Shown in pieces: positions 37,505-59,228 of a stretch of DNA of 64,000 bases. Numbering within the stretch: the stretch's first letter is position 1; every line of letters starts with the position of its first letter. The notes beneath the pieces were generated by a model that was not told the DNA's origin, searched no databases, and was given only the letters and a program-made list of their open reading frames with translations. Position numbers and translations under genes: made by a program. The stretch lies in contig NZ_CP115541.1 of the NCBI RefSeq assembly GCF_031834595.1, forward strand, positions 3,962,501 to 4,026,500. The letters are read 5' to 3'. The DNA comes from Stenotrophomonas oahuensis. GTDB taxonomy: Bacteria; Pseudomonadota; Gammaproteobacteria; Xanthomonadales; Xanthomonadaceae.

Positions 37505-37577
37505 AGATTTCCCCACAGTGTCCGACCGGGTGATTGTGAACAGGCAGCCATGGAGGCGACGTGATGCCCTGCCGTTG

Positions 37578-40718: not shown

Positions 40719-41591
40719 CTACGGCTGGGCAGGGTCTGCCTGGGTCGAAGCAACGCAGGGCGCGAAGGTCATCTCGAAGGTCAGGTACAGACACTGGCCC
40801 GGCTCAAGCCGGTTCGGCATCAGCGTGAACCCATCGGGCGGCCCGGTCTGTGGCTCCACGCAGGTGGCATGCGCCGCCCCGTCATACACCACCCAGTGGT
40901 TGGAGTCAGATCGCAGCCGAAGCCGCTGCCCGTCCCGCTCAAGCACAACATCGCGACGTGAGATGAAGCAGTCATCCCACGAGCCCGGCGTGGGCACCAC
41001 TGTCGGATACACCGCAATGCCCTCCTCGTCCCGCGGATACATGGCATCCGGAGCAAACTCCATGCGCTCCGGCTTGCGAAACCACGGATGCCAACCCAGC
41101 ACGGCGGGCATGGCGTGCGCACCGGCCCGAACCTCCAACTGCAAGCGCACGCTGTCAGGCATGAGCTCGATCACCTGCGTGGCGATGCCACCAAAAGGCC
41201 AGTATTCGTCCTCCGGCAGCGCCAACGAAAGCGTGGCGACGTCTGCCTCAAGTGGGTCGATTCGCCACGGCCGTGAGAAGCCGACACCGTGGATCGCGTG
41301 CGCTTCAAAGTTGATCGGCAGCACGAAGGATCTTCCGCCAAAATCGAATCGCCCACGCCGGATCCGTCCCGCCCACGGCACCATCGGGTAGCAACCCCAG
41401 GCAATTGTCGCGGGCCAACCGTCCTCCGGACCCACCAGCCAGTCCACGCCTTGGTACCTCAACTGGGCGATGCGCCCACCAGCCTCCGGGGCCAACGCGA
41501 CCTCCAGCGCGCCGCACCGCAACCAGTGCAAGGGGCCGGCCGGCATCGGGGCCTGCGCGTCGTCCACCGGCGACACCGGCTTACGCTCCAT
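40719..41591 (-). CDS. Aldose 1-epimerase family protein
   Basis: 290 residues of the galactose mutarotase fold: LAPEAGGRIAQLRYQGVDWL, GCYPMVPWAGRIRRGRF, HAIHGVGFSRPW (catalytic His) and LGWHPWFRKPE (second His), plus a late VEPQTGPPDGF with the Glu. It would interconvert alpha and beta anomers of released sugars such as xylose or arabinose. The ATG at 41591 overlaps the end of the symporter-GH43 gene by 11 bp; last gene of the six-gene xylan operon. Confidence 0.9.
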   Translation of the reverse strand: MERKPVSPVDDAQAPMPAGPLHWLRCGALEVALAPEAGGRIAQLRYQGVDWLVGPEDGWPATIAWGCYPMVPWAGRIRRGRFDFGGRSFVLPINFEAHAIHGVGFSRPWRIDPLEADVATLSLALPEDEYWPFGGIATQVIELMPDSVRLQLEVRAGAHAMPAVLGWHPWFRKPERMEFAPDAMYPRDEEGIAVYPTVVPTPGSWDDCFISRRDVVLERDGQRLRLRSDSNHWVVYDGAAHATCVEPQTGPPDGFTLMPNRLEPGQCLYLTFEMTFAPCVASTQADPAQP

Positions 41592-44037
41592 AAGGATCAA
41601 TCGTCTGGATGGCACCATCTGCGTCCATCTGCAGCGGTGTGCACTTGACCGAACGCAGGTGCGTAACCCCGCCCGACAGCAGCGCGTCGTGATAGAACAG
41701 CCACCACTGCCCCTCGAACTGGCAGATGGAGTGGTGCGTGGTCCAGCCGACCACAGGCTTCAGAATCACGCCTTTGTAGGTGAACGGCCCGTACGGACTG
41801 TCGCCCACGGCGTAACACAGCAGATGCGTGTTGCCGGTGGAGTACGACAGGTAGTACCGGCCATGGAACTTGTGCAGCCACGGCCCTTCGAAGAACCGCC
41901 GCGCGTGGTCGTCGGCGCGCAGTGGTTGCCCGTGTTCGTCCAGAATGACCACTTCGCGCGTCGGCTCGGCCAGCTGGATCATACCGGCTTGCAACCGCCC
42001 TACCCGCGGGCCCAACGCAGGCGCGTCGCCCGTTGGCTCCTCGTGAGCTGGATCAAAACGGTTGTCACGGTACTTCTGCAGCTGGCCGCCCCAGATCCCG
42101 CCGAAGTAGAGGTAATGCTCCCCGTCTTCGTCCTCGAATACAGCCGGGTCAATGGAGTAAGTCCCCTCCATCGGCGTAGGCTCCGCCGTGAACGGACCCT
42201 CCGGGTGGTCGGCCACCGCCACGCCGATGCGGAAGATTCCCTGCGGATCCTTGGCGGGGAAATAGAGGTAGTAGCGTCCGTCACGATACGCCGCATCCGG
42301 TGCCCACATCTGCTTCTCGGCCCACGGCACGTCGCGCACGTGCAGGGCGACGCCACAGTCGACGGCCTCGCCCGCAGGCGAATCCATGCGCAGCACGTGA
42401 TAGTCCTCCATGCCGAAGTGTCCGCCGTCATCGTCGAACGGTGCGCCGGCATCGATATCGTGCGAGGGGTAGATGTACAGCTTTCCATCAAACACGTGGG
42501 CCGAAGGGTCCGCAGTGTAGATATGGGTCACCAACGGCTGTGAGATGGCGTGCGCGGCAAGGTGCCCCAGATCGTCACCTTCACGGCGCTGCTGCAGCTC
42601 ATGTTCAATGCGGTTTTCCATGCGCTTGTCGATCTCGTAGAGGAACAGCAGGGCCACCGCCACCAGGAACGGGATGGAGCAATAGATGCTGACGGTCAGG
42701 CGGATGCCGTCAATCACGCCTTGCGGCTGCTCCGCCGCGCCAGCCTGATAGCCGTAGTGCGCGAGAATGCCGGCCACCAGGGCACCGCCGACGCTCAGGC
42801 CGACCTTCAGCCCGCATAGCATCGCGGAGAAGATTATCGCGGTGGCACGGCGATGGTTCTTCCACTCGGAGTAGTCGGCCACGTCCGCAATCATCGCCCA
42901 CAGCAGCGGAATGGTGATGCCGTAGCAGAACCCATGCAGCATGAATGACACGAAGGCCACGGCGACCGCCGTGGGCGGGAACAGATAGAACACCAGCAGG
43001 AACACGGTGGACGCCAGCAACGCACCACCGAACACGTCGCGCTTGCCGAACCGATCCGCCAGCCGTCGCGAGACGCCGATGCCGAGAATCATGCAGATGA
43101 TGCCGCACGCGTTGAACAGGCTGAAAGCCGAGGTGGCCGGATCTTCCGGCCAAGTGAAACCCGCCAACCCTGCGCCGCTGACCGCCGCGTTCAAGCCGTG
43201 AATGAAGCCATTGAAGCCGGTGCTTTGCAGGAAGCCTGCCAGCGCAGCCTCACTCATGTAGTACTGGAAGTAGTAGATGTACGTGCCGCCCTTGAGGGCG
43301 AGGTTCATGAACACCAGGATCGTCAGCGCCAGCATCACCTGCCATGGGCGGTTGTGCAGCAGGTCCTTCAGATCCTGCAACACCCCGCTGGATTGTTCCT
43401 TCGCCGGTACGATGCGCTCGCGCGTGGTGGCGAAGGTGATCAGGAAGAACACCGTACCCACCACCGCAAACACCGTCATCACCCGCTCGAAGCCCAGCAC
43501 GCGGTCGCCGTCGCCAAGAATCAGCACGAACGGCAGCAGCAGCACCTGGATGATGAACTGCGCAATCATCACCGCCACGAAGCGATAGGCTGACAGGCTG
43601 TTGCGCTGGGCCATGCTGCCGGTCAGCACGCCGCTCAGCGCGGAGTACGGCAGATTGTTGGCCGCGTACACCAGCATCAGCAGGCCGTAGGTGGCCAGCG
43701 CATAGGCCACCTTGCCACGCTCAGCGAAATCCGGCGTGCTGAACGCCAGCAGTGACAGCACGCCGAACGGGATTGCCGTCCAGAGAATCCACGGACGGAA
43801 CTTGCCCCACCGCGAGTTGGTGCGGTCTGCGGCAATGCCGATCAACGGGGTGAACACAAACGCACCGAGCAGGCCGATCACGAAAATGATGGTGGCGGCC
43901 GTGGCCGGTGGCAGCCGGAACACATCGGTGTAGAAGAACGCCAGGTAGGTGACCAGGGTCTGGAAGATCAGATTGGCCGCCAGATCCCCCAGGCTGTAGC
44001 CGAGCTTCTCGCGGATCGAGAGCAAATGTTCAGTCAC
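41581..44037 (-). CDS. Glycoside-pentoside symporter fused to a GH43 glycosidase
   Basis: 818 residues. Residues 1 to about 460 are a complete 12-helix GPH-type sugar:cation symporter (EKLGYSLGDLAANLIFQTLVTYL, GIAADRTNSRWGKFRPWILW, NLPYSALSGVLTG, ADVADYSEWKNHRRATAIIFSA). After TM12 (FLVAVALLFLYEIDKR) and a charged linker, about 495-818 is a five-bladed GH43 domain. Its likely catalytic triad is D510 (TADPSAH), D630 (SIDPAVF) and E717 (FFEGPWLHK). With 12 helices both ends are cytoplasmic, so the glycosidase would sit on the inner face of the transporter and cut imported xylo- or arabino-oligosaccharides. GTG 44037 overlaps the GH3 stop by 8 bp. No stop, gap or frameshift lies at the junction. 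Confidence 0.9.
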   Translation of the reverse strand: MTEHLLSIREKLGYSLGDLAANLIFQTLVTYLAFFYTDVFRLPPATAATIIFVIGLLGAFVFTPLIGIAADRTNSRWGKFRPWILWTAIPFGVLSLLAFSTPDFAERGKVAYALATYGLLMLVYAANNLPYSALSGVLTGSMAQRNSLSAYRFVAVMIAQFIIQVLLLPFVLILGDGDRVLGFERVMTVFAVVGTVFFLITFATTRERIVPAKEQSSGVLQDLKDLLHNRPWQVMLALTILVFMNLALKGGTYIYYFQYYMSEAALAGFLQSTGFNGFIHGLNAAVSGAGLAGFTWPEDPATSAFSLFNACGIICMILGIGVSRRLADRFGKRDVFGGALLASTVFLLVFYLFPPTAVAVAFVSFMLHGFCYGITIPLLWAMIADVADYSEWKNHRRATAIIFSAMLCGLKVGLSVGGALVAGILAHYGYQAGAAEQPQGVIDGIRLTVSIYCSIPFLVAVALLFLYEIDKRMENRIEHELQQRREGDDLGHLAAHAISQPLVTHIYTADPSAHVFDGKLYIYPSHDIDAGAPFDDDGGHFGMEDYHVLRMDSPAGEAVDCGVALHVRDVPWAEKQMWAPDAAYRDGRYYLYFPAKDPQGIFRIGVAVADHPEGPFTAEPTPMEGTYSIDPAVFEDEDGEHYLYFGGIWGGQLQKYRDNRFDPAHEEPTGDAPALGPRVGRLQAGMIQLAEPTREVVILDEHGQPLRADDHARRFFEGPWLHKFHGRYYLSYSTGNTHLLCYAVGDSPYGPFTYKGVILKPVVGWTTHHSICQFEGQWWLFYHDALLSGGVTHLRSVKCTPLQMDADGAIQTIDPYGA

Positions 44038-46702
44038 GCGCGGCCTCCACCTCGAACCGGGCCTGCACGCGGGCATCGGCGCTGGAACTGCCTACCCGGA
44101 CCTCGTAGCTTCCGGAAGGCACCGTGTAACGGCCGCCGGCCTCGTCGTACTGCCGCAGGGCCTGTTGTGCGTCCAGGTCGAAGGCTACGGTGCGCTTCTC
44201 ACCAGGGGCCAGGTGCACACGCTGGAAGCCGCGCAGGTTCTGCTGCGCATCGCCGGGTGCAGCTTGTTGCCGCCGCACGTACAACTGCACCACTTCGTCC
44301 CCGGCCTGCTTGCCGGCATTGGTAACGTCCACCTCCACCTTCAGACGTCCGTCAGCACTGATGCGCGGCACCTCGAGACGCAGCTTGTCGTAACCGAAGC
44401 GGGTGTAGGACAGGCCGTGTCCGAACGGATACAGCGGCGTTCCGCGGAAGTAGCGATAGGTACGCCCCTCCATCGTGTAATCGTCGAATGCCGGCATCTT
44501 CTGGTCTGCGGTATAGAACGTCACCGGCAGACGTCCACCGGGATTGACCTCGCCAAACAGGGCCTGGCCCACCGCGGTGCCGCCGCGTTGGCCCGGGTAC
44601 CAGCTCATCAGGATGGCCGACAGCTTGGCTGGCTCCACCGCCAACGCGGAGCCACCGGTCAGCACCATCACCACCGGCTTGCCGGTGGACTGCAGTGCCT
44701 CCAGCAGAGTGCGCTGGGTGGCGGGCAGGCGCAGGTCGGTGCGATCACCGCCGGCGAAGCCGGGATAGTTGACCTTCATCTCCTCACCCTCGACATCGCC
44801 GGTGAGGCCACCGACGAACACCACGACGTCCGAACTGCGTGCAGCGTCCAACGCCTCCTCGAACGGCTGCTTGGCCCCGGGCATCCGCCAGCCCAGTCGT
44901 ACGCCGGCGTCACGCTCGGCATCGAAGTACTCCAAGCGCAGCTCGTAGGCGCGCCCGGCCTGCAGCTCCAGCTCCACGCCGTCGCCGCGCATACGGTCGC
45001 TGGGGGTCCAGTGGTCCAGCACCTGCTTTCCATCCACGTACAGACGGAAGCCATCGTCTGCGGCCGCCTCGAGCCGATAGCGCCCGGACACCGGCGGTAG
45101 GAGCTGGCCGCTCCAGCGGATGCTGAAGTGATCGTTCGGAACCCCCTGCCCCGGCCCTGCCTCGCCCCGGGCCATCAGGTTGTCCGTGGGCGAGCCCCGG
45201 TCCCAGCGGAACCCAATCTGGGCGTCGGTGCGCACCAAAGATGGTGTGCCGGATAGATCGGCCGTACGGAAGTACTCGCCGCGCAGACCACGTTCCGGCG
45301 AATCGGCGGATGGTCGCAGATAGGCGGCCTCGATCAGGGGCGTGGCACTGGGATCGTCGCGTCCCTCCACCAGGTCCACGCCACGCGCGTAACGCACCTC
45401 AACGCCCTTTGCGGCATCGCGGATGCCCTGCAGAATCGTCACCGGTGCGGCCGGGGTGCCAAAGTAGTTGCCCAGCAGTGCCATGGTGTCGTCCGCGGTC
45501 GGGCCCACCACGGCAATGCGCTTGACCGTAGGCGCAAGCGGCAGCACACCATCGTTCTTCAGCAGGACCAGCGATTCCTGCGCCGCCTTCAATGCGAGCG
45601 CGTCGTGCGCCGGTGCCTGGTTCACCGACGGCGGAATACGCGCCCAGCGCACGCGCTCAGGCGGGTCGAACATACCCAGCCGCATGCGTGCAACGAACAG
45701 GCGCGTCACCGCATCATCGATCTCGGCTTCGCTGATCAGGCCCTGACGCACCGCCGCGGGCAGCGTGGTGTACTCCTGTCCACATTCCAGTTCGGTGCCG
45801 TTCTTCACCGCCAGCGCTGCCGCCGCCTCGCGGGAGGGCTCGATCTTGTGGTTCTTCCAGATATCCACGATGGCCCAGCAGTCGGACACCACATAGCCCT
45901 TGAATCCCCAGTCGCGGCGCAGCACGTCGCGCAGCAGGAACTGACTGGCACTGGCGGATTCGCCGTACACGCGGTTGTAGGCCCCCATCACCGCATCCAC
46001 GTCGCCCTCCTTGATCAGCGCCTCGAACGCAGGGAAGTAGGTGTCATACAGATCACGTTTGCTGGGGCGGGCGTCGAAATGGTGGCGGTCGGCCTCGGGC
46101 CCGCTGTGCACTGCGAAATGCTTGGCGGTGGCGTCCAGCTTGCGATACACCGGGTCATCGCCCTGCAGGCCGTGCACGAAGGCCACGCCCATGCGCGCGG
46201 TCAGGTACGGGTCTTCGCCATAGGTTTCCTGGCCCCTGCCCCAGCGCGGGTCGCGGAAGATGTTGATGTTCGGTGACCAGAACGTCAGCCCCTGGTAGCG
46301 CCCGTGCTGGTTTTCGCGGATGAACTGATGATGCTTGGCGCGTGCTTCATCGCTGATGGTGGTGGCCACCTGCTGCATGAGCGGCACGTCGAAAGTGGCG
46401 GCCAGTCCGATGGCCTGCGGGAACACCGTCGCCTGCCCTGCCCGCGCCACGCCATGCAGACCCTCGTTCCACCAGTCGTACGCTGGAACACCCAGCCGCT
46501 CGATGGGCGGGGCGGCGTTCTGCATCTGAGCCGCTTTCTCCTCCAATGTCATCTGTGACACCAACGCCGCAGCGCGGGTTTCAAACGAGGCGGAGGTGTC
46601 CAGCCACGGCTGCGGTTGCGCCGCATGAACAGCGGTGGCCATCGCGATGGCGGCGCTCAGGGCCAGCGTGCGATACAGCGAACAAGGGTTCCGCATCATC
46701 AT
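44030..46702 (-). CDS. GH3 beta-xylosidase/glucosidase with PA14 domain
   Basis: 890 residues with a signal peptide (LALSAAIAMATAVHAA), periplasmic. GH3 N-terminal barrel with DWWNEGLHGVARAG, SPNINIFRDPRWGRGQETYGEDP, AKHFAVHSGPEADRHHFDA and nucleophile D274 in YVVSDCWAIVDIW. A PA14 domain (LRGEYFRTADLSGTP to DAGVRLGWRMPG) is inserted in the C-terminal domain, then FPFGHGLSYT-type and fibronectin-III ends. Sequence of the first half resembles beta-xylosidases of xylan loci. Three consecutive ATGs follow GAGGAG; the first overlaps the GH43 stop. Confidence 0.9.
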   Translation of the reverse strand: MMMRNPCSLYRTLALSAAIAMATAVHAAQPQPWLDTSASFETRAAALVSQMTLEEKAAQMQNAAPPIERLGVPAYDWWNEGLHGVARAGQATVFPQAIGLAATFDVPLMQQVATTISDEARAKHHQFIRENQHGRYQGLTFWSPNINIFRDPRWGRGQETYGEDPYLTARMGVAFVHGLQGDDPVYRKLDATAKHFAVHSGPEADRHHFDARPSKRDLYDTYFPAFEALIKEGDVDAVMGAYNRVYGESASASQFLLRDVLRRDWGFKGYVVSDCWAIVDIWKNHKIEPSREAAAALAVKNGTELECGQEYTTLPAAVRQGLISEAEIDDAVTRLFVARMRLGMFDPPERVRWARIPPSVNQAPAHDALALKAAQESLVLLKNDGVLPLAPTVKRIAVVGPTADDTMALLGNYFGTPAAPVTILQGIRDAAKGVEVRYARGVDLVEGRDDPSATPLIEAAYLRPSADSPERGLRGEYFRTADLSGTPSLVRTDAQIGFRWDRGSPTDNLMARGEAGPGQGVPNDHFSIRWSGQLLPPVSGRYRLEAAADDGFRLYVDGKQVLDHWTPSDRMRGDGVELELQAGRAYELRLEYFDAERDAGVRLGWRMPGAKQPFEEALDAARSSDVVVFVGGLTGDVEGEEMKVNYPGFAGGDRTDLRLPATQRTLLEALQSTGKPVVMVLTGGSALAVEPAKLSAILMSWYPGQRGGTAVGQALFGEVNPGGRLPVTFYTADQKMPAFDDYTMEGRTYRYFRGTPLYPFGHGLSYTRFGYDKLRLEVPRISADGRLKVEVDVTNAGKQAGDEVVQLYVRRQQAAPGDAQQNLRGFQRVHLAPGEKRTVAFDLDAQQALRQYDEAGGRYTVPSGSYEVRVGSSSADARVQARFEVEAARD

Positions 46703-48393
46703 CTGCTCCTCGATGCGCGCTCGTCGCGCGCGAATGGTCCCAGCAGGGTGCCGACAAAGCCCCCTGCACGATCGGTACTCAAAACGGTGCCGTCGACGTC
46801 GCCTTTCAGCGTCCGCCAGCCGCGTCCATCGTCGCTATCGAACGAAAAGGCGTAGCGACCTTCGTCGCCTGTGATCTTCAGGCGTAGCGTCGCCGATGCT
46901 GCCAGTTCGCGGCTGGCCAGCGTCTTCGTGACGCCACCGCCGTCGCGTCCTTCAGCGAACACGGCCATGCGATTTCCTTCCAACTGACGAACGCCAAAGA
47001 AGTACCAGTAGTCCTCGCTCTGGTACGCCGCCAGTCCAGCCGCGACACCCTTCGAAGGCAGCGTCATTTCGGTACTGGCATCGAAGCGGAGATGCTGCTG
47101 GCGGCGGCCGAGGAACGAAGGATTGCGGCGCGTATCGAGATCCTCGCGTAGTGGATGCACGCCGAGGCTGCCGGTGCGGCTGCTCAGGTCGACCCACGTC
47201 CTGGTGGGAACCCGCACCTGCAACCACTCATCTGCCGGCTTCGCCCCGTTGAAGTCATCGCGCATCACGAAATTGCCGGTGCCAGGTGCCTGTGACAGCC
47301 CGTCCTGCAGCCAGGAAGGTCCCTTCACCACATATGGAATGGCCTGCCCAGGCGGCAGGATGATCGGCCAGCCGTCCTGCCACTGCACCGGCAGCAGGTA
47401 GGTTTCACGGCCGGTGTTGTAATGGCGTTGCTGGTAATTGCGGCTTGCCAGAAACACGGCCCACCAGGAACCATCGGGTCCTTCCACCAGATCGGCATGG
47501 CCGGCGTTGGTGATGGGCAGCGGTCTGTCTGCCGGGAGGTCGCGCTGGGTCAGGATGGGATTGCCCGCAAACGGCACATAGGGACCCCAGATGTTTCGAC
47601 TGCGCAGCACCACCTGCGAATGCTGCGGACCGGTGCCGCCCTCTGCGGCCGACAGGTAATACCAGCCCTCGCGCTTGTAGAGATGCGGGCCTTCGATCCA
47701 GATCGGCTTGGTGGTCGGGTCCACGCCGCCGTCCACCAGCACCTTGCGCGGCCCAACCGGATTCAGCGTGGCCCGGTCGATCTGCTGCATCCAGATCGCC
47801 CGATGCCCCTCGTAACGCGGCGTCCCGTCTGGCGCGTCATTGTTCACCAGGAAGGCACGGCCGTCCTCATCGAAGTACAGCGACGGATCGATGCCGCCGA
47901 CGCCGGGCAGCCAGTGCGGTTCCGACCACGGGCCGGCCGGGTCGCGCGCGGTGACGATGAAGTTGCCGCCACTATCGACGGCGGTGGTGACCACGTAGAA
48001 CAGGCCGTCGTGATACGAAATGGCGGGCGCGAAGATGCCGCGGGACACGCCCAGGCCATCGAAATTCAGTACGCCCGGGCGATCGATGACGTTGCCGATC
48101 TGCTTCCAGTGCACCAGGTCGGTGCTTTCGAACACGGGGATGCCGGGGAAGTACGCAAAGCTGGAGTTGACCAGATAGAAGCGGCCGTTGGCGGCAACAA
48201 CGCTGGGGTCGGCGTGAAAGCCGGCGAGCACCGGATTGCGGTAATGCCCGGCCGGCACCGGGCCGTCGAAGGCCACATCGTGGCCGGCGTACTCGAACCA
48301 GTCAAAATAGACCGGCTGTACCGGTTGCGGCACACGCGCGAGACCCATGGCGGCCAGGATCAGTACGAGCACCACGATGCGTAGTTTCATCAT
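46699..48393 (-). CDS. GH43 beta-xylosidase/arabinofuranosidase with C-terminal beta-sandwich
   Basis: 564 residues with a signal anchor or leader (LRIVVLVLILAAMGLA). GH43 propeller with the catalytic base Asp in FHADPSVV, the pKa-modulating Asp in GGIDPSLYFDEDG and the acid Glu in WIEGPHLYK. The C-terminal part (MRDDFNGAKPADEWLQVRVP onwards, with SEDYWYFFGVRQLEGN) is the concanavalin-like beta-xylosidase C-terminal domain. Likely periplasmic and active on xylo-oligosaccharides. Overlaps the esterase stop (ATGA) and the GH3 start. Confidence 0.9.
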   Translation of the reverse strand: MMKLRIVVLVLILAAMGLARVPQPVQPVYFDWFEYAGHDVAFDGPVPAGHYRNPVLAGFHADPSVVAANGRFYLVNSSFAYFPGIPVFESTDLVHWKQIGNVIDRPGVLNFDGLGVSRGIFAPAISYHDGLFYVVTTAVDSGGNFIVTARDPAGPWSEPHWLPGVGGIDPSLYFDEDGRAFLVNNDAPDGTPRYEGHRAIWMQQIDRATLNPVGPRKVLVDGGVDPTTKPIWIEGPHLYKREGWYYLSAAEGGTGPQHSQVVLRSRNIWGPYVPFAGNPILTQRDLPADRPLPITNAGHADLVEGPDGSWWAVFLASRNYQQRHYNTGRETYLLPVQWQDGWPIILPPGQAIPYVVKGPSWLQDGLSQAPGTGNFVMRDDFNGAKPADEWLQVRVPTRTWVDLSSRTGSLGVHPLREDLDTRRNPSFLGRRQQHLRFDASTEMTLPSKGVAAGLAAYQSEDYWYFFGVRQLEGNRMAVFAEGRDGGGVTKTLASRELAASATLRLKITGDEGRYAFSFDSDDGRGWRTLKGDVDGTVLSTDRAGGFVGTLLGPFARDERASRSR

Positions 48394-50372
48394 CGTGTTG
48401 CGCCCTCATCAATGACCAGCTCGAACGGACCGGCCGGGGCACCGCTGCGGTCGCGCAGCGTGCAGACCGGGCCGTCTGCCCAGCAGTAGCGCACGCGGGC
48501 CGCCGTCTGCGAGGCTGGGCCGTGTAGAACGACGTCGTGCCCGTCGATGTCCGCATCGACATAGGTACATGGCGAGCCATCAGCAGCGCAGAGCTCGAAG
48601 CCGATGGGCCGCTGCGCGCCGGTGGTCACCAGTGCGCCACTGACGCCGTCAAAGTGCACCCGCACTTCGGAAGACGAGCGTGTCGCACCACGTGCGCTCG
48701 GGCCGGAAGGAGGCACCCCTGCTTCGCCCTGCACGACGTAGCGGGCCAGCCGGGTCAAACGCCGGCCAAGCTCCTGCTTGTTCGGCGGGTGGATGTCGTA
48801 GGCGTCGCCGATGTCGATGGCGACCGCGAGCCCGCTGTGCGGGTCTTCCGCAGCCACACGACGTTGTGCTTCGCGCACCTCGGCCCAGCCGCTTTCCACC
48901 GGAGCCACCGGCGGCTGGCCGTAGCCGGCCAACTGCACGATCAGCAGCGGTGTGTGCGCGCCGAACTGCCTGCGCCAGTCGTCACGCAAGGTCCGCAGTC
49001 GCGCCGCGTATGCTCGGCCGTCAGCCGTGTTGGACTCGCCCTGGTACCACAGCATGCCGCGCAAGGCGGGACTTCCGAGCGGTGCGATCATGCCGTTGTA
49101 CAGGGTCGACAGCCCGGTGGCGGCATGCCACGGCGCCAATGGCGGTGGGCCTTCCCCAGAGGCTGGACGATACTGCCAGCCTGCATCCAGAACTACGCGC
49201 GTGCCATCGTCAAAACGCACTGCGTGCGCCGACGCCGGGCCGGCCAGTCCACCGTCGGCCCAGGTGTCCAGCACGTTGATCACGATGTGATTGGTGCCTG
49301 CTTTCAGCAGGCCGGGGGGCAGCGGATACGAACGTGGCTCGCCCGGTGCGTACCGGCTGCCCACGCCCCCCCCGTTCACCCAGGTCATGTCGGTTTCATC
49401 AACCGGTCCGAGTTCAAGCGTGGCTCCCTGCGTTGACTGCGCGGTGGTCAGCGTCACCTGGGTGCGATACCACACCATGCCATTGTAGTCAGCCAGTGTG
49501 GGCACGCCCCAACGCTCCCATGCACCCAGCGAGGCCGGTGCCTCGCGCCAATCCCCACCTGCACCTGGCTGCCAGGGGGCATCTTCCGGTGCGGCACCGG
49601 GGCGTGAGGTCCACCACTGGGCCCAATGCCTGCCCCACTCCGCGTTGGCGGCTGCGCTGTCCTGGGTCGACAGCGCCAGCAGATCCAGTGCCGTATCCAT
49701 GCTCCCCTGCGCACGCAGTGCCTCGGCACTTGTCCACGCTTCGATCCGCGAGCCACCCCAGGCGGCCTGGATCAAGCCCATCGTCACCTTCACCGTCTTC
49801 TGCAGCTCCCGCGCAAAGTAGAAGCAGGCAGCAGAGAAATCACGCACGGTGTCTGGCGTCACCGGCGTCCAGGCGACGGAATCGTGGAAGCCCTCCTGCG
49901 GCGCCGCAGCCGCGTGCTTCGGTGCCGTGAACAGACGGATGTTCGGATGGGTGGCAGCGGCGATCTCACCGTCTGCGTTGAGCGCACGCCACACCGGCAG
50001 TTCCATGTTCGACTGCCCGGAGCACAGCCATACATCGCCGATCTGCAGGTCCTGCAGGGTCTGGGTACGCTGGCCTGCCCGTACGGTCATCTGGTAGGGA
50101 CCGCCTGCCGCGAGCGGGCGCAGGGTTGTGCGCCAATGGCCGTTGGCGTCCGGGTGCGCGGTTACGTTCTGGGTAGCGAATGTCACCGTTACTGGAGTAC
50201 CGGGTGCGGCGCGGCCCCATACCGTGATCGGCTGGTCGCGTTGCAGGACGGCGTGGTCCTGGAACAGCGGATGCAGCAGCGGTGTCATGGATTCCTGTGC
50301 GATGGCGGGTGCTGCGCAGCAGGTCGCGATGGCGAAGAGGATTCGCGCGAAACAGGCGGCGTGGCGGGTCAT
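48390..50372 (-). CDS. Sialate O-acetylesterase-type (SGNH) acetylxylan esterase
   Basis: 660 residues with leader (CFARILFAIATCCAAPAIAQ). SGNH esterase blocks: VWLCSGQSNMELPV with the nucleophile Ser, AWGGSRIEAW, GMLWYQGESN, and the DIHPPNKQELGRRL His/Asp block. A beta-galactosidase-like jelly roll lies in the middle (WYRTQVTLTT ... NHIVINVLD). Members in xylan loci remove acetyl groups from xylose units; that role here is inferred from context. The start at 50372 overlaps the alpha-glucuronidase stop by 4 bp. Confidence 0.88.
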   Translation of the reverse strand: MTRHAACFARILFAIATCCAAPAIAQESMTPLLHPLFQDHAVLQRDQPITVWGRAAPGTPVTVTFATQNVTAHPDANGHWRTTLRPLAAGGPYQMTVRAGQRTQTLQDLQIGDVWLCSGQSNMELPVWRALNADGEIAAATHPNIRLFTAPKHAAAAPQEGFHDSVAWTPVTPDTVRDFSAACFYFARELQKTVKVTMGLIQAAWGGSRIEAWTSAEALRAQGSMDTALDLLALSTQDSAAANAEWGRHWAQWWTSRPGAAPEDAPWQPGAGGDWREAPASLGAWERWGVPTLADYNGMVWYRTQVTLTTAQSTQGATLELGPVDETDMTWVNGGGVGSRYAPGEPRSYPLPPGLLKAGTNHIVINVLDTWADGGLAGPASAHAVRFDDGTRVVLDAGWQYRPASGEGPPPLAPWHAATGLSTLYNGMIAPLGSPALRGMLWYQGESNTADGRAYAARLRTLRDDWRRQFGAHTPLLIVQLAGYGQPPVAPVESGWAEVREAQRRVAAEDPHSGLAVAIDIGDAYDIHPPNKQELGRRLTRLARYVVQGEAGVPPSGPSARGATRSSSEVRVHFDGVSGALVTTGAQRPIGFELCAADGSPCTYVDADIDGHDVVLHGPASQTAARVRYCWADGPVCTLRDRSGAPAGPFELVIDEGATR

Positions 50373-52627
50373 CGTCCGTCTCCTGGTGCGGAGGGGAACT
50401 GGAGGGATTGGTAGTACAACAGCGGGTGTGGGGGTGCGGACTCGCCTGCTGGCAATGGCCTGCTGCTGATGGACTGGAAGTAGGAGACGCTGGCGTCGCG
50501 CCACCATTGGGCTTCGCGGCGTTGGATGTTGAGGTAGGCGGCGATCTGGGCGTGGCGTTCGGGGTCTATCGCCAAGGGCAGCCGGGCAAGACCCGGCTCT
50601 ACGGGGTTGAGGGTGGCCCAGGTTTTCTGCATGGCCTGGACTTGGCGGACGCCTTGCGCATAGCGGGCAATCAGCTCATCCCATAGCGGGCGGCCGGAGG
50701 CCATGCGGTGGTCCCACGGGACGTGGTGGAACCACAGCAGCAGCGCTTCCGGAACCTGGTTGATGTCTCCATAGCGCGCCGCGACGGCCGGTGCGTACTG
50801 CGCCACGGCATTGCTGCCGCTCGCGGTGCGGTCGAAACCGATGCCGCTTCCATCTGCCCGGTGGTAATACACAGAGGTCCAGTCTGCGCGTGGGCCGCCG
50901 TCCACCCAGGGGCCGGGGCCGTAGTGGTGACCGCGTGCCATCAGATGGTGCAGGCCCAGCGGGGTCATGTAGTTCACCGCCGCTTCGCGCGAACCCATCA
51001 TCATGTCGACGATCGGCTGCACCACGGCCGGATCCGGCGAGAACGTCATGGCGGCCCAGTCCGCAGCGATATCGCGGGCGGATTGATGCGGATTCCAGGC
51101 CAGCCGACCGAACGCGTACCAGTTCGCCTGGTCGAAATGCGAGCCAGTCCAGGTTCTGTCGTTGCCGATATTGGCCACGCCGGCCATGCCGGTCAGTGCA
51201 TGCCCTTCCAGCGTGCCATCGATCACCTGTGCCACAGTGGAGCCCGGGCCACGCGCGTGGGTGTCCGACTGCAGCACTTCCTCGTACAACGGCCCCAGGT
51301 ACACCAGGTGCGTGGCGAAGCCGAGGTACTCCTTGGTGATCTGGAACTCCATCATCAGCGGCGTGCGCGGCATCGCACCGAACAACGGATGGAACGGCTC
51401 ACGCGGCTGGAAATCCAATGGTCCGTTCTTCGCCTGCACGATCACGTTGCGACGGAACGCCCCATCGAGGCCTTTGAACTCCGTGTACGCCTGCGTGGTG
51501 CGGTCCGCAGGCACGTCGTGCGCGTAGACAAAGGCCCGCCACATCACCACGCCACCATGAGGTGCCAGTGCGTCCGCCAACAGGTTGGCTCCCTCCGCAT
51601 GTGAGCGGCCATAGTCCTGTGGACCCGGCTGCCCTTCAGAATTTGCCTTGACCAGGAAGCCGCCGAAATCCGGTATGTACGAATAGATCTCGTCCACCTT
51701 GCGCTGCCACCAGCGCTGCACGCCGGGATCCAGCGGGTCGGCGGTGGTGAGCCCGCCCAGTTCGATGGGGGCGCTGAACCGCGCACTCAGGTACACGCGG
51801 ATCCCATAGGGCCGCAGCACATCGGCGAGCGCCGCCGCCTTGACCAGATAGTCTGGAGCCAGACTCCAGGCGCTGGCGTTGACGTTGTTCAGCACCGCCC
51901 CGTTGATGCCTATCGAGGCGTTGGCACGCGCATAATCGGTGTAACGCGGGTCGCGCCACTCCGGCAGGCTTTGCCAGTCCCATAGCGAGCGTCCGGCGTA
52001 ACCGCGTTCGACATACCCATCGAGATTGTCCCAATGATCGAGCACCCGCAGCGCTACCCGGGGCGATTCGCGAACGTCCAGGCGATCCAGCGGCGCGCCG
52101 GTCTGTAGCATACGCAGCAGATGAAAAGCGCCGTACAGCACGCCGATGTCCTGCCGCGCAGCGACCAGAATCACGTCACGCCCGTCCCGCCGCATGCGCC
52201 TGATCAGGTAGCCCCCGTTGCCCAGCTCAGCCAGCTCGTCCTGCAGCGGGGCAATCAACGACGACGTCTGTGGTGTGCCCAGAATCAGCCCGCTGTCACC
52301 GGCGATGGTAGTTCGCAATGTGGGGGCATGCCCCAGCAGGCCGGTGAGACCACGCACCAGTTCCTCGCGTGCGGCGCGTTGGGTAGGCGTGCCGTCGGGC
52401 GCAACAATTTCCTGCAGCTGTTCGCTACGTTCTGCAGCCAGTGCGGATGGCAGTGGAACGTAGCGCATCCACAGCGCATAGCCGTCTTCCGCGCGTGCGC
52501 TGCCGGTGAACACCAGCAGTGCAGCAAGCACCACTGCACTCCAATGACACCGCGCGACAAGGCGAGCGGCCGGCAGCGTGGCAGATAAACGCGGTAAGCT
52601 GGGGCCGTGCGCAGGGTGCGCCATCAT
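50369..52627 (-). CDS. aguA: GH67 alpha-glucuronidase
   Basis: About 752 residues. Signal peptide (HWSAVVLAALLVFTGSARA) then the three GH67 domains. Catalytic motifs: FLVKANSEGQPGP (acid Glu), NGPLDFQPREP (Asp) and MMEFQITKEYLG (Glu). It removes 4-O-methylglucuronic acid from the non-reducing end of xylo-oligosaccharides. Two adjacent ATGs (52627 and 52624) lie only about 50 bp from the divergent LacI gene; later starts are possible since the leader is long. Near residue 676 an in-frame SMAG repeat encodes PVEPGLARLP, an apparent insert before the conserved DPERH...WWRDA region. First gene of the six-gene operon. Confidence 0.92.
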   Translation of the reverse strand: MMAHPAHGPSLPRLSATLPAARLVARCHWSAVVLAALLVFTGSARAEDGYALWMRYVPLPSALAAERSEQLQEIVAPDGTPTQRAAREELVRGLTGLLGHAPTLRTTIAGDSGLILGTPQTSSLIAPLQDELAELGNGGYLIRRMRRDGRDVILVAARQDIGVLYGAFHLLRMLQTGAPLDRLDVRESPRVALRVLDHWDNLDGYVERGYAGRSLWDWQSLPEWRDPRYTDYARANASIGINGAVLNNVNASAWSLAPDYLVKAAALADVLRPYGIRVYLSARFSAPIELGGLTTADPLDPGVQRWWQRKVDEIYSYIPDFGGFLVKANSEGQPGPQDYGRSHAEGANLLADALAPHGGVVMWRAFVYAHDVPADRTTQAYTEFKGLDGAFRRNVIVQAKNGPLDFQPREPFHPLFGAMPRTPLMMEFQITKEYLGFATHLVYLGPLYEEVLQSDTHARGPGSTVAQVIDGTLEGHALTGMAGVANIGNDRTWTGSHFDQANWYAFGRLAWNPHQSARDIAADWAAMTFSPDPAVVQPIVDMMMGSREAAVNYMTPLGLHHLMARGHHYGPGPWVDGGPRADWTSVYYHRADGSGIGFDRTASGSNAVAQYAPAVAARYGDINQVPEALLLWFHHVPWDHRMASGRPLWDELIARYAQGVRQVQAMQKTWATLNPVEPGLARLPLAIDPERHAQIAAYLNIQRREAQWWRDASVSYFQSISSRPLPAGESAPPHPLLYYQSLQFPSAPGDGR
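50578..50602. repeat. SMAG-like palindrome inside the alpha-glucuronidase gene
   Basis: GCAGCCGGGCAAGACCCGGC then TCTAC, on minus GTAGAGCCGGGTCTTGCCCGG then CTGC, with the same GTAGAG head as the intergenic copies. It is read in frame as VEPGLARL in the C-terminal part of the GH67 enzyme. Confidence 0.8.
52518..52540. promoter_or_regulatory. Inverted repeat in the leader region of the alpha-glucuronidase
   Basis: AGTGCAG-CAAGCACCA-CTGCACT, perfect 7-bp arms around a 9-bp spacer. It falls in the signal-peptide codons of the GH67 gene, 138 bp before the divergent LacI start. It may be an operator of that regulator if the true GH67 start is downstream, or chance. Confidence 0.25.
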
Positions 52628-52677
52628 CCGCCCTCGTTGCAGCGCGGCAGCGTCACGAAGATCGAAGGGAACGCGTA

Positions 52678-53736
52678 TTGGACAAGCCGAAGAAATCGGT
52701 CCGCCGCAAAACCAGCGGCGTGACGATCGACGAGGTGGCAGCACGGGCCGGCGTGTCGCCGATGACGGTGTCGCGGGTGATCAACCAGGGCAAGGTGCGC
52801 GACACCACACGCGAACGCGTGATGGACGCGGTACGGGAGCTGGGTTACACGCCCAATCTGGCCGCCAGCACCCTGGCCGCTGCACAGCACACCCGGGTCG
52901 CGCTGATCTACACCAATCCCAGTGGTGCCTACCTGCGCGAGCTGCTGGTCGGCCTGCTGCGTGTCGCTTCGAATGCGGCCATCCAGCTGGTGATCGACTA
53001 CTGGGACACGCTGGAACCGGCAGCCGAGCGCAAGGCCGCCCGCGCGTTGTCCGGCCGCGTGGACGGCGTGATTCTGCCGCCGCCGCTGTGCGAATCGCCG
53101 GCAGCGGTGAGTGAGCTGGTAAAGGCCGGCATTCCGGTGATCGCGATTGCCTCGGGCCGGCTGGGCGACGGCATCTCCTGCGTCCGCATCGACGATTTCC
53201 ACGCCGGCAAGGAGATTGCCGAACACCTTATCCAGCACGGCCACACCCGCATCGGATTCATCTGCGGGCGCCACGACCTCAGCGCCAGTGCACGGCGCTA
53301 CGAGGGGTTTGTCACCGCGTTGGATGAGGCCGGACTGGAAGTTGAATCCGGGCTGGTCCAGCACGGTGACTACACCTACCGTTCCGGACTGGACGCGGCG
53401 GAGAAACTGCTGTCCCACCCGCGCCCGCCCACCGCGGTGTTTGCCAGCAACGACGATATGGGAGCGGCCGTCATCTCGGTCGCGCACCGGCGCGGTCTCG
53501 ATGTGCCGCGCGACCTGTCGGTGGTGGGCTTCGATGACAGCTCGGCCGCCACCACAGTGTGGCCGGAGCTGACCACGGTGCAGCAGCCAATCGGTGCCAT
53601 GGCCGATGCCGCGCTTGAACTCCTGCTGCGCAGCATTCGGCGCAAGGGCGAAGCGCCCCTCGAATTGACCGACCACCTGGTCCCGCACCGTCTGGTGGTG
53701 CGGGACTCGGTGGCGAGGCCGCCGAAGCGTCGATAG
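52678..53736 (+). CDS. LacI-family regulator of the xylan operon
   Basis: 352 residues. The LacI helix-turn-helix reads VTIDEVAARAGVSPMTVSRVINQGKVRDTTRERV with hinge YTPNLAASTLAAA. A periplasmic-binding-type sugar domain follows (VALIYTNPSGAYLRELLVG, FICGRHDLSASARRYEGF, VFASNDDMGAAVI, VVGFDDSS). The start is TTG 52678 behind GAAGGGA, as no ATG is close to the domain edge. Divergent from the GH67-led operon, so likely its repressor; effector probably a xylan-derived sugar (inference). It converges on the GH3 lipoprotein with 14 bp between stops. Confidence 0.9.
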   Translation: MDKPKKSVRRKTSGVTIDEVAARAGVSPMTVSRVINQGKVRDTTRERVMDAVRELGYTPNLAASTLAAAQHTRVALIYTNPSGAYLRELLVGLLRVASNAAIQLVIDYWDTLEPAAERKAARALSGRVDGVILPPPLCESPAAVSELVKAGIPVIAIASGRLGDGISCVRIDDFHAGKEIAEHLIQHGHTRIGFICGRHDLSASARRYEGFVTALDEAGLEVESGLVQHGDYTYRSGLDAAEKLLSHPRPPTAVFASNDDMGAAVISVAHRRGLDVPRDLSVVGFDDSSAATTVWPELTTVQQPIGAMADAALELLLRSIRRKGEAPLELTDHLVPHRLVVRDSVARPPKRR

Positions 53737-53750
53737 CGCCGCGGGCATGG

Positions 53751-56309
53751 TCACTTGCCCGGGCATGCAACCGTGACTTCGGCTTCGTTCAACGCCCCCA
53801 GCGCCACGCGCGAGACGGACACCGTCATCGCCCCGGCGGTGCCCAGCGACCAAGGCCGGTCCAGCTTGCTGACATCCGCACCGGCGGTGGTCAGGCATTT
53901 CAACGGAATGCCCACCTGCTTCCATTCACCCACCGGTAGTGCCGCCAGCGTCGGACCCACGTCAACACGGGCCGAACACCCGGTGCCGCAGCCGACCGCC
54001 AGCCACGCATTGCCCTTGGGCGCAGCGTCAACACGCAGCGTGGTCAGCAGCATCAGGTCACCGTTGCTTTCGCGCTGAACGTCCAGCGGCGTATGCGATT
54101 GCAAGGCAACGGTGGCCTCGCCCTTGCCCGACCAGGCCAGACGGCGCCCGTCTTCCTGCGCAAGGTGATCAACCCCCGTGACCTTCAACAGATCGCCGTC
54201 GAGGGATTCCGGCACTTTGGTGACGGTCACGCCCTGCCCCGTCGGGTTTTCCAGTCGCAGGGCAATGCCGGAACCGGCGTCGCCGCGCGCGAAGTACACG
54301 CCCACCGCACCTTCATTACCGGTTACGCCCGACTCTTCCGGCAGTGCCGCCAGATCGCCCTTGTCGGCGTAGGTGAGGCCGTAGCCGAAGGCAAACTGCG
54401 GGTTGTAGTCCTTCTGTCCGACATTGTTGGCGTACTGCGTCGCAGTGCGCGGCCAGCTGAAGCTCAACTTTCCCTTGAAGTCGTGCTGCACGCTGCCATC
54501 CGGCTTGCGCAGCAGGACGTCGGCAATGCCTGCACCTTCCGAACCGGGCAGCCAGGCTGCGATGAACGCATCGGACGCGTTGATCTCACGATTCACCCAC
54601 AGCGGGCGGCCACTCAGGAACACCGCCACCACCGGAATGCCGTCCGCCTTCAAACGCTTGAGCAGTTCCAGGTCTGCATCATCGCCCGGCTTGTAGGCCA
54701 GTGTGGGCAGATCGCCCTGAAACTCGGCATACGGGTTCTCGCCGAACACGACCACCGCCACATCCGGCTTGGTGGTGTATTTGCCGTCCACCGCCAGCAC
54801 CGCCTCACCGCCCGCCGCCTTGACCTGCTTCGCGATACCTTCGTAAATGGTGTTTGCGTTCGGGAAGTCCTTGCGGGTGGTGCCGGTACCCTGCCAGTTC
54901 AGCGTCCAACCGCCTGCCTGCTTACCTACATCATTGGCACCGTCACCGGCCACCAGGATGCGCTGCTTCGGCGACAGCGGCAGTACGGCACCCTGGTTCT
55001 TCAGCAGCACCAGCGACTCGCGCACCGCCTGCCGGGCCACCTCGCGATGCTCCGGTGCACCGATCAGGGCAAACTGCCCGCCCACGGCGCGCGTGGAGGG
55101 CTTGCCGGCTTCGAACAGGCCCAGGCGCATCTTCACCCGCAGAATGCGCCGCACCGCTTCGTCCAACCGCTCCTGGCTGATGGCGCCGTCCTTGACTGCC
55201 GCCAGCGTGGTTTCGTAGAAGCCTTTCCAGCTGTCCGAAGCCATCGCCATGTCCAGGCCGGCGTTGATCGTGGCCGGGCAGTCGGTGGTGGTGCAGCCCT
55301 TCACCTGGCCATGGCCGTTCCAGTCGCCGACCACGAAGCCGCCGAAGTTCATGCGACCTTTCAGCGCGTCGGTCAGGTACGGCTTGTGACCGTGCATCTT
55401 CTCGCCGTTGACGCTGTTGAACGAGGCCATCGCGGTCTGCGCACCGGCTTCAATCGCTGGCGGATAGCCGGCGTTATGGATGCGCACCAGTTCGGCCTCG
55501 CTGATCTTCGTATCACCCTGGTCCTTGCCGTCGGTGGTGCCGCCGTCACCAAGGAAATGCTTTACCGAGGCGATCACATGCCGGCCATCCAGGAACTCTG
55601 GCGAACCGACCTTGCCCTGCAGGCCTTCGACCATCCGGCCGGAGTAGCTGGCCACGACGTCCGGGGATTCGGAATAGCCCTCGTAGGTGCGACCCCAGCG
55701 GTCGTCCTGCGGTACCGCCACGGTGGGAGCGAACGTCCACTCCATGCCGGTGGCACGGGTTTCCAGCGCGGTGATCTCGCCGATGCGATGCAGCAGGTCC
55801 GGATTACGGGCGGCACCCAGGCCGATGTTGTGCGGGAACAACGTGGCCCCGACGATGTTGCTCTGCCCGTGCACGGCATCGATACCGAACAGCACCGGAA
55901 TCGCCTTGCCGCCCTGTGAGGTATCCATCGACGCTTCATAGAAGGCATCGGCCAGCGCCAGCCACTCGGCCGGCGAGGCGTCATATCGGCCGCCCGGGTC
56001 GGAGTTGCCGCCGGCCAGGATCGAGCCGAGCCGGTACTTGCGCAGATCGTCCGGGGTGATGCTGGCAATATCGCCCTGCACCAGCTGACCCACCTTCTCC
56101 TCGACGGTCATGGTCGCCATCAGGTTGGTGATGCGCCTTTCCATCGCGGCATCTTCGGCCAACGGCCAGGTCACCTGTGGCCAGGGGTTCGCATCGGCCT
56201 GCGCCGGTGCGGGCGAGGCCGCCTTGTCATCGCCCTTGCAGGCCGCCAGGGCCAGCAGCAGGGCAACCATCAGTACGCCGCTACGGCGCGTCGAGTAGTG
56301 GTGGGTCAT
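53751..56309 (-). CDS. GH3 glucan 1,4-beta-glucosidase-type lipoprotein
   Basis: 852 residues. Signal with lipobox LALAACKG, so probably lipid-anchored. GH3 motifs: GIDAVHGQSNIVGATLFPHNIGLG, ASVKHFLGDGGTTDGKDQGDT, nucleophile D329 in GFVVGDWNGHGQV, C-terminal FSWPRTATQYANNVG and FAFGYGLTY. A further galactose-binding-like domain (SLGTAGAMTVSVSRVALG) ends the protein, as in ExoP-type exo-beta-glucosidases; some relatives act on xylan fragments. The ATG at 56309 is chosen for the leader. It follows xylA by 23 bp, so xylB-xylA-GH3 is probably one operon. Confidence 0.9.
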   Translation of the reverse strand: MTHHYSTRRSGVLMVALLLALAACKGDDKAASPAPAQADANPWPQVTWPLAEDAAMERRITNLMATMTVEEKVGQLVQGDIASITPDDLRKYRLGSILAGGNSDPGGRYDASPAEWLALADAFYEASMDTSQGGKAIPVLFGIDAVHGQSNIVGATLFPHNIGLGAARNPDLLHRIGEITALETRATGMEWTFAPTVAVPQDDRWGRTYEGYSESPDVVASYSGRMVEGLQGKVGSPEFLDGRHVIASVKHFLGDGGTTDGKDQGDTKISEAELVRIHNAGYPPAIEAGAQTAMASFNSVNGEKMHGHKPYLTDALKGRMNFGGFVVGDWNGHGQVKGCTTTDCPATINAGLDMAMASDSWKGFYETTLAAVKDGAISQERLDEAVRRILRVKMRLGLFEAGKPSTRAVGGQFALIGAPEHREVARQAVRESLVLLKNQGAVLPLSPKQRILVAGDGANDVGKQAGGWTLNWQGTGTTRKDFPNANTIYEGIAKQVKAAGGEAVLAVDGKYTTKPDVAVVVFGENPYAEFQGDLPTLAYKPGDDADLELLKRLKADGIPVVAVFLSGRPLWVNREINASDAFIAAWLPGSEGAGIADVLLRKPDGSVQHDFKGKLSFSWPRTATQYANNVGQKDYNPQFAFGYGLTYADKGDLAALPEESGVTGNEGAVGVYFARGDAGSGIALRLENPTGQGVTVTKVPESLDGDLLKVTGVDHLAQEDGRRLAWSGKGEATVALQSHTPLDVQRESNGDLMLLTTLRVDAAPKGNAWLAVGCGTGCSARVDVGPTLAALPVGEWKQVGIPLKCLTTAGADVSKLDRPWSLGTAGAMTVSVSRVALGALNEAEVTVACPGK

Positions 56310-56332
56310 GGTGGTCGTCCTTGTGGGCGCGC

Positions 56333-57667
56333 TCAGCGCAACAGGTACTGGTTGATCAGGTTTTCGTAGCGTTCCTGCTTGCCGCTGATCTGCTTCGGCT
56401 CGCCGCCCTTCGCACCGAGCGCCGCCAGGTCGACAAGACTGAGTGCGCCACGCTCGAACTGCTGGCCGGCACCGCTGTCGAAGCTGGCGTAGCGCTCTTT
56501 GCGCCACTGCTCCCACGGCGAGTCGTTCAGCAGGCCATGCGCCACTTCCAGCCCGCGTGCGAACGCATCCATGCCGCCGATGTGGGCAATGAACAGATCG
56601 TCCAGATCGGTCGACTCGCGCCGCACCTTGGCGTCAAAGTTCAAGCCGCCTTCCAGCCCGCCCTGGCGCAGCACCACGAGCATTGCGCCCACTGTGTCGT
56701 ACAGGTCGGTCGGGAACTGGTCGGTATCCCAGCCGTTCTGGGCGTTGCCGCGATTGGCGTCGATGCTGCCGAGCAGGCCGTGGTCGGAGGCCACCTGCAG
56801 GTCGTGCTCGAAGGTGTGGCCGGACAACGTCGCGTGGTTGGCCTCGATGTTGAGCTTGAAGTCCTTCTCCAGCCCGTGCTCCTTCAGGAAGCCGGCCACG
56901 GTGGCGCTGTCGAAGTCGTACTGGTGCTTCATCGGCTCCATCGGCTTCGGCTCGATCAGGAAGTTGCCCTTCAAGCCGATGCTGCGGCCATAGTCGCGGG
57001 CCATGGTAAGGAAGCGGGCGAAGTGGTCGACCTCCCGCTTCATCTGCGTGTTCACCAGCGAGGCATAGCCTTCACGGCCGCCCCAGAACACATAGTGCTC
57101 ACCGCCCAGCTCGACGGTCGCTTCCAGTGCCGCCTTGACCTGCACGGCGGCGCGCGCGACCACGGCGAAGTCCGGGTTGGTCGAAGCACCGTTCATGTAG
57201 CGCGGGTGCGAGAACAGGTTCGCCGTGCCCCACAGCAGCTTCATGCCGGTGGCCTCCTGGCGGGCCTTGGCCAGGCCGACCATGTGCTTCAGGTTCTTCT
57301 CGTACTGCGCCGGGTCGTCAGCATCCGGGGCCAGGTCAATGTCGTGGAAGCACCAATACGGCACGCCCAGCTTGGTGAAGAACTCGAACGCCGCATCCAC
57401 CTTGGCTTCAGCAGTCGCCATGGGCGAGCTCGATTCCCACGGGAAATGGCGGGTACCCGGACCGAACGGATCATGCCCGGCGTTGCAGAAGGTATGCCAG
57501 TAGCACACGGCGAAACGCAGGTGCTCCTGCATGGTCTTGCCGCCAATGACCTTGTTGGCGTCGTAGACCTTGAACGCCAGCGGATTGTCCGAGCCGCGAC
57601 CTTCGAACGGGATGCGGCCAATGCCGGGGAAGTATTCCTTGGCGCCGATGTAGGGCTGCGTGCTCAT
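56333..57667 (-). CDS. xylA: Xylose isomerase
   Basis: 444 residues, the usual length of the group II enzyme. Converts D-xylose to D-xylulose. Motifs: [27 protein letters not shown] with the catalytic His, [34 protein letters not shown] (metal-binding Glu), [37 protein letters not shown]. The ATG at 57667 begins the canonical [16 protein letters not shown]. Lies 44 bp downstream of xylB. Confidence 0.97.
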
Positions 57668-59205: not shown

Positions 59206-59228
59206 CAAAACACCCTTTGAAAAATTAA

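Follow-up and report, generated by a model that had tools for sequence, protein, structure and literature searches.

I report here that a window of 64,000 nucleotides (nt) from Stenotrophomonas oahuensis (assembly GCF_031834595.1, contig NZ_CP115541.1, positions 3,962,501 to 4,026,500 of the forward strand) encodes a membrane carrier of the GPH family and an exo-oligoxylosidase-type enzyme of glycoside hydrolase (GH) family 43, subfamily 1 (GH43_1), in this order and in one frame, and that this is a true gene fusion. Comparison with related loci suggests that it probably arose naturally, by the joining of two neighbouring genes in a xylan operon, yielding a membrane-tethered enzyme that would trim xylo-oligosaccharides where they are imported.

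The fused coding sequence lies on the minus strand (41581..44037), runs from a GTG at 44037 to a TAA at 41583-41581, and comprises 818 codons (818 amino acids) with no internal stop; the plus-strand frame over the same interval has five stops. The original prediction, made from the window's sequence alone, had described a continuous frame of this length and position, which holds, the strand being an addition since it had been left unstated. It had also regarded the gene as embedded in an operon, in agreement with the overlaps found at both ends: the start of the fusion overlaps the stop of an upstream GH3 gene by 8 nt, and its stop overlaps the ATG (at 41591) of an aldose-epimerase gene by 11 nt.

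Domain architecture

The carrier domain spans residues 1-480 (42598..44037, minus strand) and has 12 predicted transmembrane helices, with both termini predicted inside. Its membership of the GPH family rests on the curated model TIGR00792, against which the fusion scores 340.6 bits (343.5 in the genome search) with a cut-off of 231.35; the best NCBIfam match is to the YagG subfamily, at a score under that model's cut-off, and Pfam recognises MFS_2 (best stretch, residues 13-277) and MFS_1 (residues 304-474). In the AlphaFold2 model the carrier part matches MelB structures and has the 12-helix fold of MelB-type members of the major facilitator superfamily (MFS), the 12 long helices being counted by hand from the secondary-structure line. 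The 12-helix GPH-type carrier of the original prediction is thus upheld, and so is its placing of the enzyme in the cytoplasm: with loops placed by hand, lysine and arginine make up 19/111 residues of those assigned inside vs 3/100 of those assigned outside, and the C-terminal enzyme domain is accordingly predicted to lie on the cytoplasmic side.

Residues 499-818 (41584..42543, minus strand) form the GH43_1 domain, assigned from Pfam (Glyco_hydro_43, residues 569-809) and structure matches. The solved protein closest in sequence to this part is XacGH43_1 of Xanthomonas citri (6xn0; 563.8 bits), followed by CoXyl43 (5glk) and RS223-BX (4mlg). The enzyme part of the AlphaFold2 model matches GH43_1 structures, and in structural alignments it is 71-73% identical to XacGH43_1, 62% to CoXyl43 and 56% to RS223-BX; both its fold and its closest relatives are those of subfamily 1, to which I take RS223-BX to belong as well. 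CoXyl43 and RS223-BX are close GH43 beta-xylosidases, but they are free-standing. XacGH43_1 and CoXyl43 are assigned to subfamily 1 in PMC7809346, where XacGH43_1 is described as a calcium-activated enzyme which releases xylose from xylobiose to xylohexaose (X2-X6) and which, with calcium, is a monomer in solution. The structures (PDB 6xn0-6xn2) and assays of XacGH43_1 (Xac4258) thus concern a soluble, free-standing monomer without a carrier, whereas the enzyme of the fusion is carrier-bound; the monomeric state of XacGH43_1 implies that tethering would not conflict with a required oligomer.

The alignment with XacGH43_1 is free of gaps, at a residue offset of 480 in the numbering used in PMC7809346. 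The general base is D510 (42508..42510; D30 of XacGH43_1), the pKa modulator D630 (42148..42150; D150) and the general acid E717 (41887..41889; E237), all on the minus strand and assigned from alignment and conservation; H768 corresponds to the calcium ligand H288. The triad, which is the one originally named, and H768 are unchanged in 35/35 aligned rows of Xanthomonadaceae fusions (the window and 34 loci, among which the window is counted once more; 28/34 loci are distinct in sequence). Measured against the window, the other 33 fused loci have a median ratio of non-synonymous to synonymous substitution rates (dN/dS) of 0.10 (carrier), 0.09 (enzyme) and 0.18 (linker). These figures are rough, given the strong divergence at synonymous sites and the presence of duplicate loci. 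On these ratios both domains are under purifying selection, and a chance open frame is thereby ruled out.

The same observations bear on whether the GH43 domain might have a sensing or feedback role towards the carrier, comparable to that of the IIA-like domain of LacS. There is a precedent within the family, for LacS of streptococci is a GPH carrier with a fused C-terminal EIIA-like domain (PMC10710835), yet this extra domain is a phosphorylated regulator and not an enzyme that cuts the cargo. The C-terminal domain of the present chain is a GH43 and not IIA-like, its catalytic residues and calcium-ligand histidine are invariant as expected of an enzyme, and its dN/dS about equals that of the carrier, so that a regulatory fusion seems quite improbable.

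The two domains are joined by a linker of 18 residues (481-498; 42544..42597, minus strand), which falls mostly within a predicted helix (471-495) and the 3' half of which corresponds to the old GH43 N-terminus. Its length is 18 residues in 30/34 fused loci and 24 in the other four (L008-L011), its sequence being variable; a length of 20 residues in L122, hinted at by match ends, was not borne out by the alignment. In the AlphaFold2 model (pTM 0.64, with no inter-domain error shown, for which reason inter-domain geometry does not enter the conclusions) residues 481-490 have a block mean pLDDT of 66.

This lower confidence is what one might see if the chain were cut after synthesis, or if the enzyme were made also from an internal start, carrier and enzyme ending up separate. 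Potential starts do exist near the junction, with a GTG four codons past the domain start in 25/34 loci and, in 30/34, an ATG at codon 473; a ribosome-site-like motif, however, accompanies the GTG in 0/25 loci and the ATG in 1/30, and any other start that has one is confined to one or two loci. By this crude motif test, the 34 fused loci have no conserved start codon preceded by a ribosome-site-like motif between codons -30 and +9 around the enzyme start. Separate products are thus an unlikely outcome, and the protein is presumably expressed as a single chain.

Recurrence among relatives

In a protein search with the fusion, 54 of the best 120 of 6738 matches are single chains of 804-839 residues that cover 99-100% of it; of these, 51 are 85-93% identical and three 60-61%. 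The check proposed at the outset, for database proteins with the same domain order and length, therefore returned the same full-length chain many times over. One further database protein (P0113, 593 amino acids) appears by eye to be part of a Xanthomonas-type fusion whose frame has been disturbed. In the search with the GH43 part, 54/120 listed matches likewise have a carrier domain, and 49 of the remaining 66 have a GH10 domain. These GH10-GH43_1 chains (e.g. P0121, P0123, P0124) join the enzyme to another hydrolase and not to a membrane carrier; in a few listed chains GH43_1 is joined to other domains. Both searches were confined to lengths of 0.55-1.75 times the query, which excludes free-standing GH43_1 enzymes, and their counts are not frequencies.

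Among 91 genomes of the window's genus, 37 have a match (E <= 1e-150), fused in 22 (the window's own included) and split in 15. The fusion is in one piece in 21 of the 22; in G249 it is broken by contig ends, and the end of the carrier still shares one frame with the enzyme. In the Xanthomonas genus to which G006 belongs, 18/20 genomes have a match, seven fused and 11 split, which brings the fused form to 29 genomes across two genera. Stenotrophomonas rhizophila (L037) is one of the relatives with the fused gene. When 198 genomes were sampled from the family, 63 had a match (E <= 1e-60), seven of them as one stop-free chain. Of the 114 loci first examined, some of which represent the same genome from two collections, 14 were fused and 95 split, one had the carrier only and four had no carrier.

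The two domains are thus normally separate genes in many relatives, as had been supposed. A stop between the domains in close relatives had been named as grounds for rejecting the fusion; such stops are frequent, but the fusion still recurs in 29 genomes. The split relatives are also the one circumstance that could make an assembly or sequencing artefact conceivable. The probability of an artefact is practically nil, as recurrence rules it out: 54/120 listed proteins are the same chain, and two genera have it in 29 genomes.

Origin of the fusion

In split Xanthomonadaceae relatives the carrier stops some 10-20 residues past the stretch aligned with EHEL, and the enzyme starts from a separate ATG, its hydrophilic N-terminus being followed by a stretch of the AISQPLV type. 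The matched domain ends are 130-131 nt apart in the closest split relatives listed (among them L095, S. maltophilia D457, and L092, Pseudoxanthomonas japonensis) vs 54 nt in the window. From this spacing, a net loss of 76-77 nt is taken to have removed the carrier stop and the enzyme start and left one frame.

The surroundings agree with such an event. The GH3 gene upstream and the epimerase gene downstream flank 27/35 fused loci, the others being seven Xanthomonas-genus loci with GH3 only and L080 with neither. Among 16 hand-picked split loci both genes are present in 11 (Stenotrophomonas and Pseudoxanthomonas types), L024 has the epimerase only and four Xanthomonas loci have neither. Flanking genes common to split and fused loci imply that the fusion arose in place in the window's genus; the two partners are separate neighbours there in 15/37 genomes with a match, and the flanks are shared in 11/16 of the picked loci.

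In a carrier tree of 94 rows (a quick method, with support from the Shimodaira-Hasegawa-like approximate likelihood ratio test, SH-aLRT, only) a single branch, with a support of 95, unites the 28 distinct fusion rows of Xanthomonadaceae; L080, a metagenome-assembled genome of Chitinophagales, lies outside it, and at least two label changes are forced. The carrier tree thus gives a single origin in Xanthomonadaceae, which the enzyme tree neither confirms nor excludes, since an unresolved fork there parts the fused rows into groups of 9 and 19. In the latter tree the seven Xanthomonas-genus rows group with two Stenotrophomonas-genus fusions (99/90), which points to the transfer of a ready fusion; moreover, identity to the window is 85-86% for the Xanthomonas-genus fusions and 69-72% for split carriers of the same genus. 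A ready-made fusion was therefore likely transferred horizontally into the Xanthomonas genus (L008-L011, L139-L141; 7/18 genomes), where it is found with the GH3 gene.

The trees and junctions indicate that the carrier-GH43 pair is fused in Bacteroidota as well. Three such proteins were found, with three different junction sequences; P0052 and P0053 (the protein of L080) group together and P0054 stands apart in both trees, so that the two label changes forced here amount to two gains, or to one gain and one loss.

How much such a fusion means is another matter. It may well be neutral: a deletion in a tandem pair would have joined the frames, the chain would work, and the tether would add nothing beyond equal expression, a reading to which I give appreciable weight while holding it somewhat less than probable. 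The split pairs are already adjacent and co-oriented, with 66-201 nt between matched domain ends, and one small deletion suffices; the Xanthomonadaceae fusions form one clade in the carrier tree, and the linker sequence varies freely. On the other hand, 28/28 distinct rows of that clade remain fused, the fusion was apparently transferred to the Xanthomonas genus and retained there, other fusions exist in Bacteroidota, and the linker keeps to 18 residues in 30/34 loci, although none of these points is decisive.

Proposed function

The fusion would more probably act as a tethered enzyme, and I infer its substrate, the direction of transport, the enzyme activity and any benefit of the tether. Exported enzymes of the locus would make short xylo-oligosaccharides outside the cell, which the carrier would bring in across the inner membrane. 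The C-terminus of the carrier and the short helical linker would hold the GH43 domain at the cytoplasmic face, where this exo-oligoxylosidase would cleave xylose from the non-reducing end of incoming oligosaccharides. At the least, importer and enzyme would gain a constant 1:1 ratio and a set position relative to each other; the kinetic coupling of import and hydrolysis and the avoidance of a free pool, as originally suggested, would go further and are conjectural. The enzyme would also act in a compartment where no other GH43 of the genome seems to work: three further GH43 genes all have signal-like N-termini (by eye), and no second close GH43_1 copy and no GH39 match were found in the genome. 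The fusion is also the only GPH match above cut-off. Among 70 rows of split GH43_1 homologues, 60 have a usable N-terminus, none of them signal-like by eye. That tethering may matter is suggested by the repeated fusion, the lack of reversal among the 28 rows and the stable linker length.

Several observations weigh against this proposal. Many relatives keep carrier and enzyme as separate genes, and small sugars diffuse fast, so that proximity alone may bring little. The Xanthomonas-genus fusions have the GH3 gene without an epimerase match, and the four split Xanthomonas loci lack the flanking genes. The genome has seven GH3 matches, two without an obvious signal and one NagZ-like (by eye), and these might also act on xylo-oligosaccharides.

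The carrier itself raises a further difficulty. MelB, the melibiose permease of the same family, is about 21-23% identical to the carrier and lacks an enzyme domain. Its D59, presumably a cation-site residue, and its D55 align (read by eye) with T63 (43851-43849, minus strand) and A59 (43863-43861, minus strand) of the fusion; the title of structure 8fq9 places D55 at the cation site. A59 and T63 are invariant in 34/34 fused rows, the aspartates of a MelB-type sodium symporter being absent. This state is shared by split rows of the Xanthomonadaceae-type group (A59 in 70/70, T63 in 69/70), and 41 more distant split rows, mostly of Bacteroidota, have N (38) or D (3) at the second site, the D being confined to three Prevotellaceae loci (L100, L104 and L113). 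The counterpart of MelB D18 is D in 145/145 grouped rows. With the cation-site aspartates absent, energy coupling by ion symport is no more than putative; of the symporter originally proposed, the GPH carrier stands, and ion symport is a conjecture.

Since the carrier lacks the cation site of MelB, it might run largely on the gradient that its own enzyme maintains. The chain would then be a transport metabolon, in which the GH43 site under the cytoplasmic opening captures oligosaccharides on release, and hydrolysis pulls import and limits back-flow; I regard this stronger version as rather unlikely.

Known systems

Split carrier and GH43_1 pairs, as found in Xanthomonadaceae and Bacteroidota, have the same domains in adjacent genes but in two chains, and the YagG/YagH and XynT/XynB pairs are presumably of this kind. 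An importer joined to the enzyme for its own cargo is an arrangement wanted by engineers of sugar-using microbes. Here, species of one genus have the fused and the unfused form at the same place in the operon, with further fusions in Bacteroidota, and these natural matched sets make the benefit of tethering an enzyme to a transporter directly testable. MFS proteins are known in fusions of many classes (PMC10710835). No natural GPH-GH43 fusion came up among the papers listed in a full-text literature search, judged by titles and abstract openings; this fusion may be included in a survey by Willson et al. 2019 (doi 10.1099/mic.0.000771), which deals with C-terminal fusions of MFS proteins. The source names, where the listed fused chains have one, are those of a carrier or a hypothetical protein, never of the enzyme, which is of consequence for annotation.

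Genomic context

The fusion is followed by the aldose 1-epimerase family gene (40719..41591; Pfam) and preceded by the GH3 gene (44030..46702), whose product has a PA14 domain, a signal-like N-terminus by eye and the Xyl3A xylosidase as best NCBIfam match (under cut-off). Further upstream are genes for an enzyme with GH43 and GH43_C2 domains (46699..48393; signal-like N-terminus by eye), a carbohydrate esterase of the SASA family (48390..50507), a GH67 alpha-glucuronidase (50369..52744), a GH3 enzyme with an Exop_C domain (53751..56516) and an FGGY-family carbohydrate kinase (57712..59208), from its context presumably a xylulokinase. All these are on the minus strand, and a LacI-family regulator (52519..53736) is divergent, on the plus strand. 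Together with an isomerase-like frame just below the Pfam cut-off, the GH67, GH3, GH43, esterase, LacI and FGGY kinase genes point to xylan use, in line with the xylo-oligosaccharide context originally proposed. The genes of Xanthomonas xylan loci include xylE and agu67A, according to PMC3826837.

PADLOC gave no defence-system match. Beside the xylan genes, the segment 59272-63956 encodes Trp_halogenase, Cupin_8 and SapC proteins and a TonB-dependent receptor. Elsewhere in the window (31588-33786 and 35391-37516), a gene for a molybdopterin-binding dehydrogenase lies a few kilobases from that of a solute-binding protein with ABC-like neighbours, which I take, as a guess, to form a molybdate transporter.

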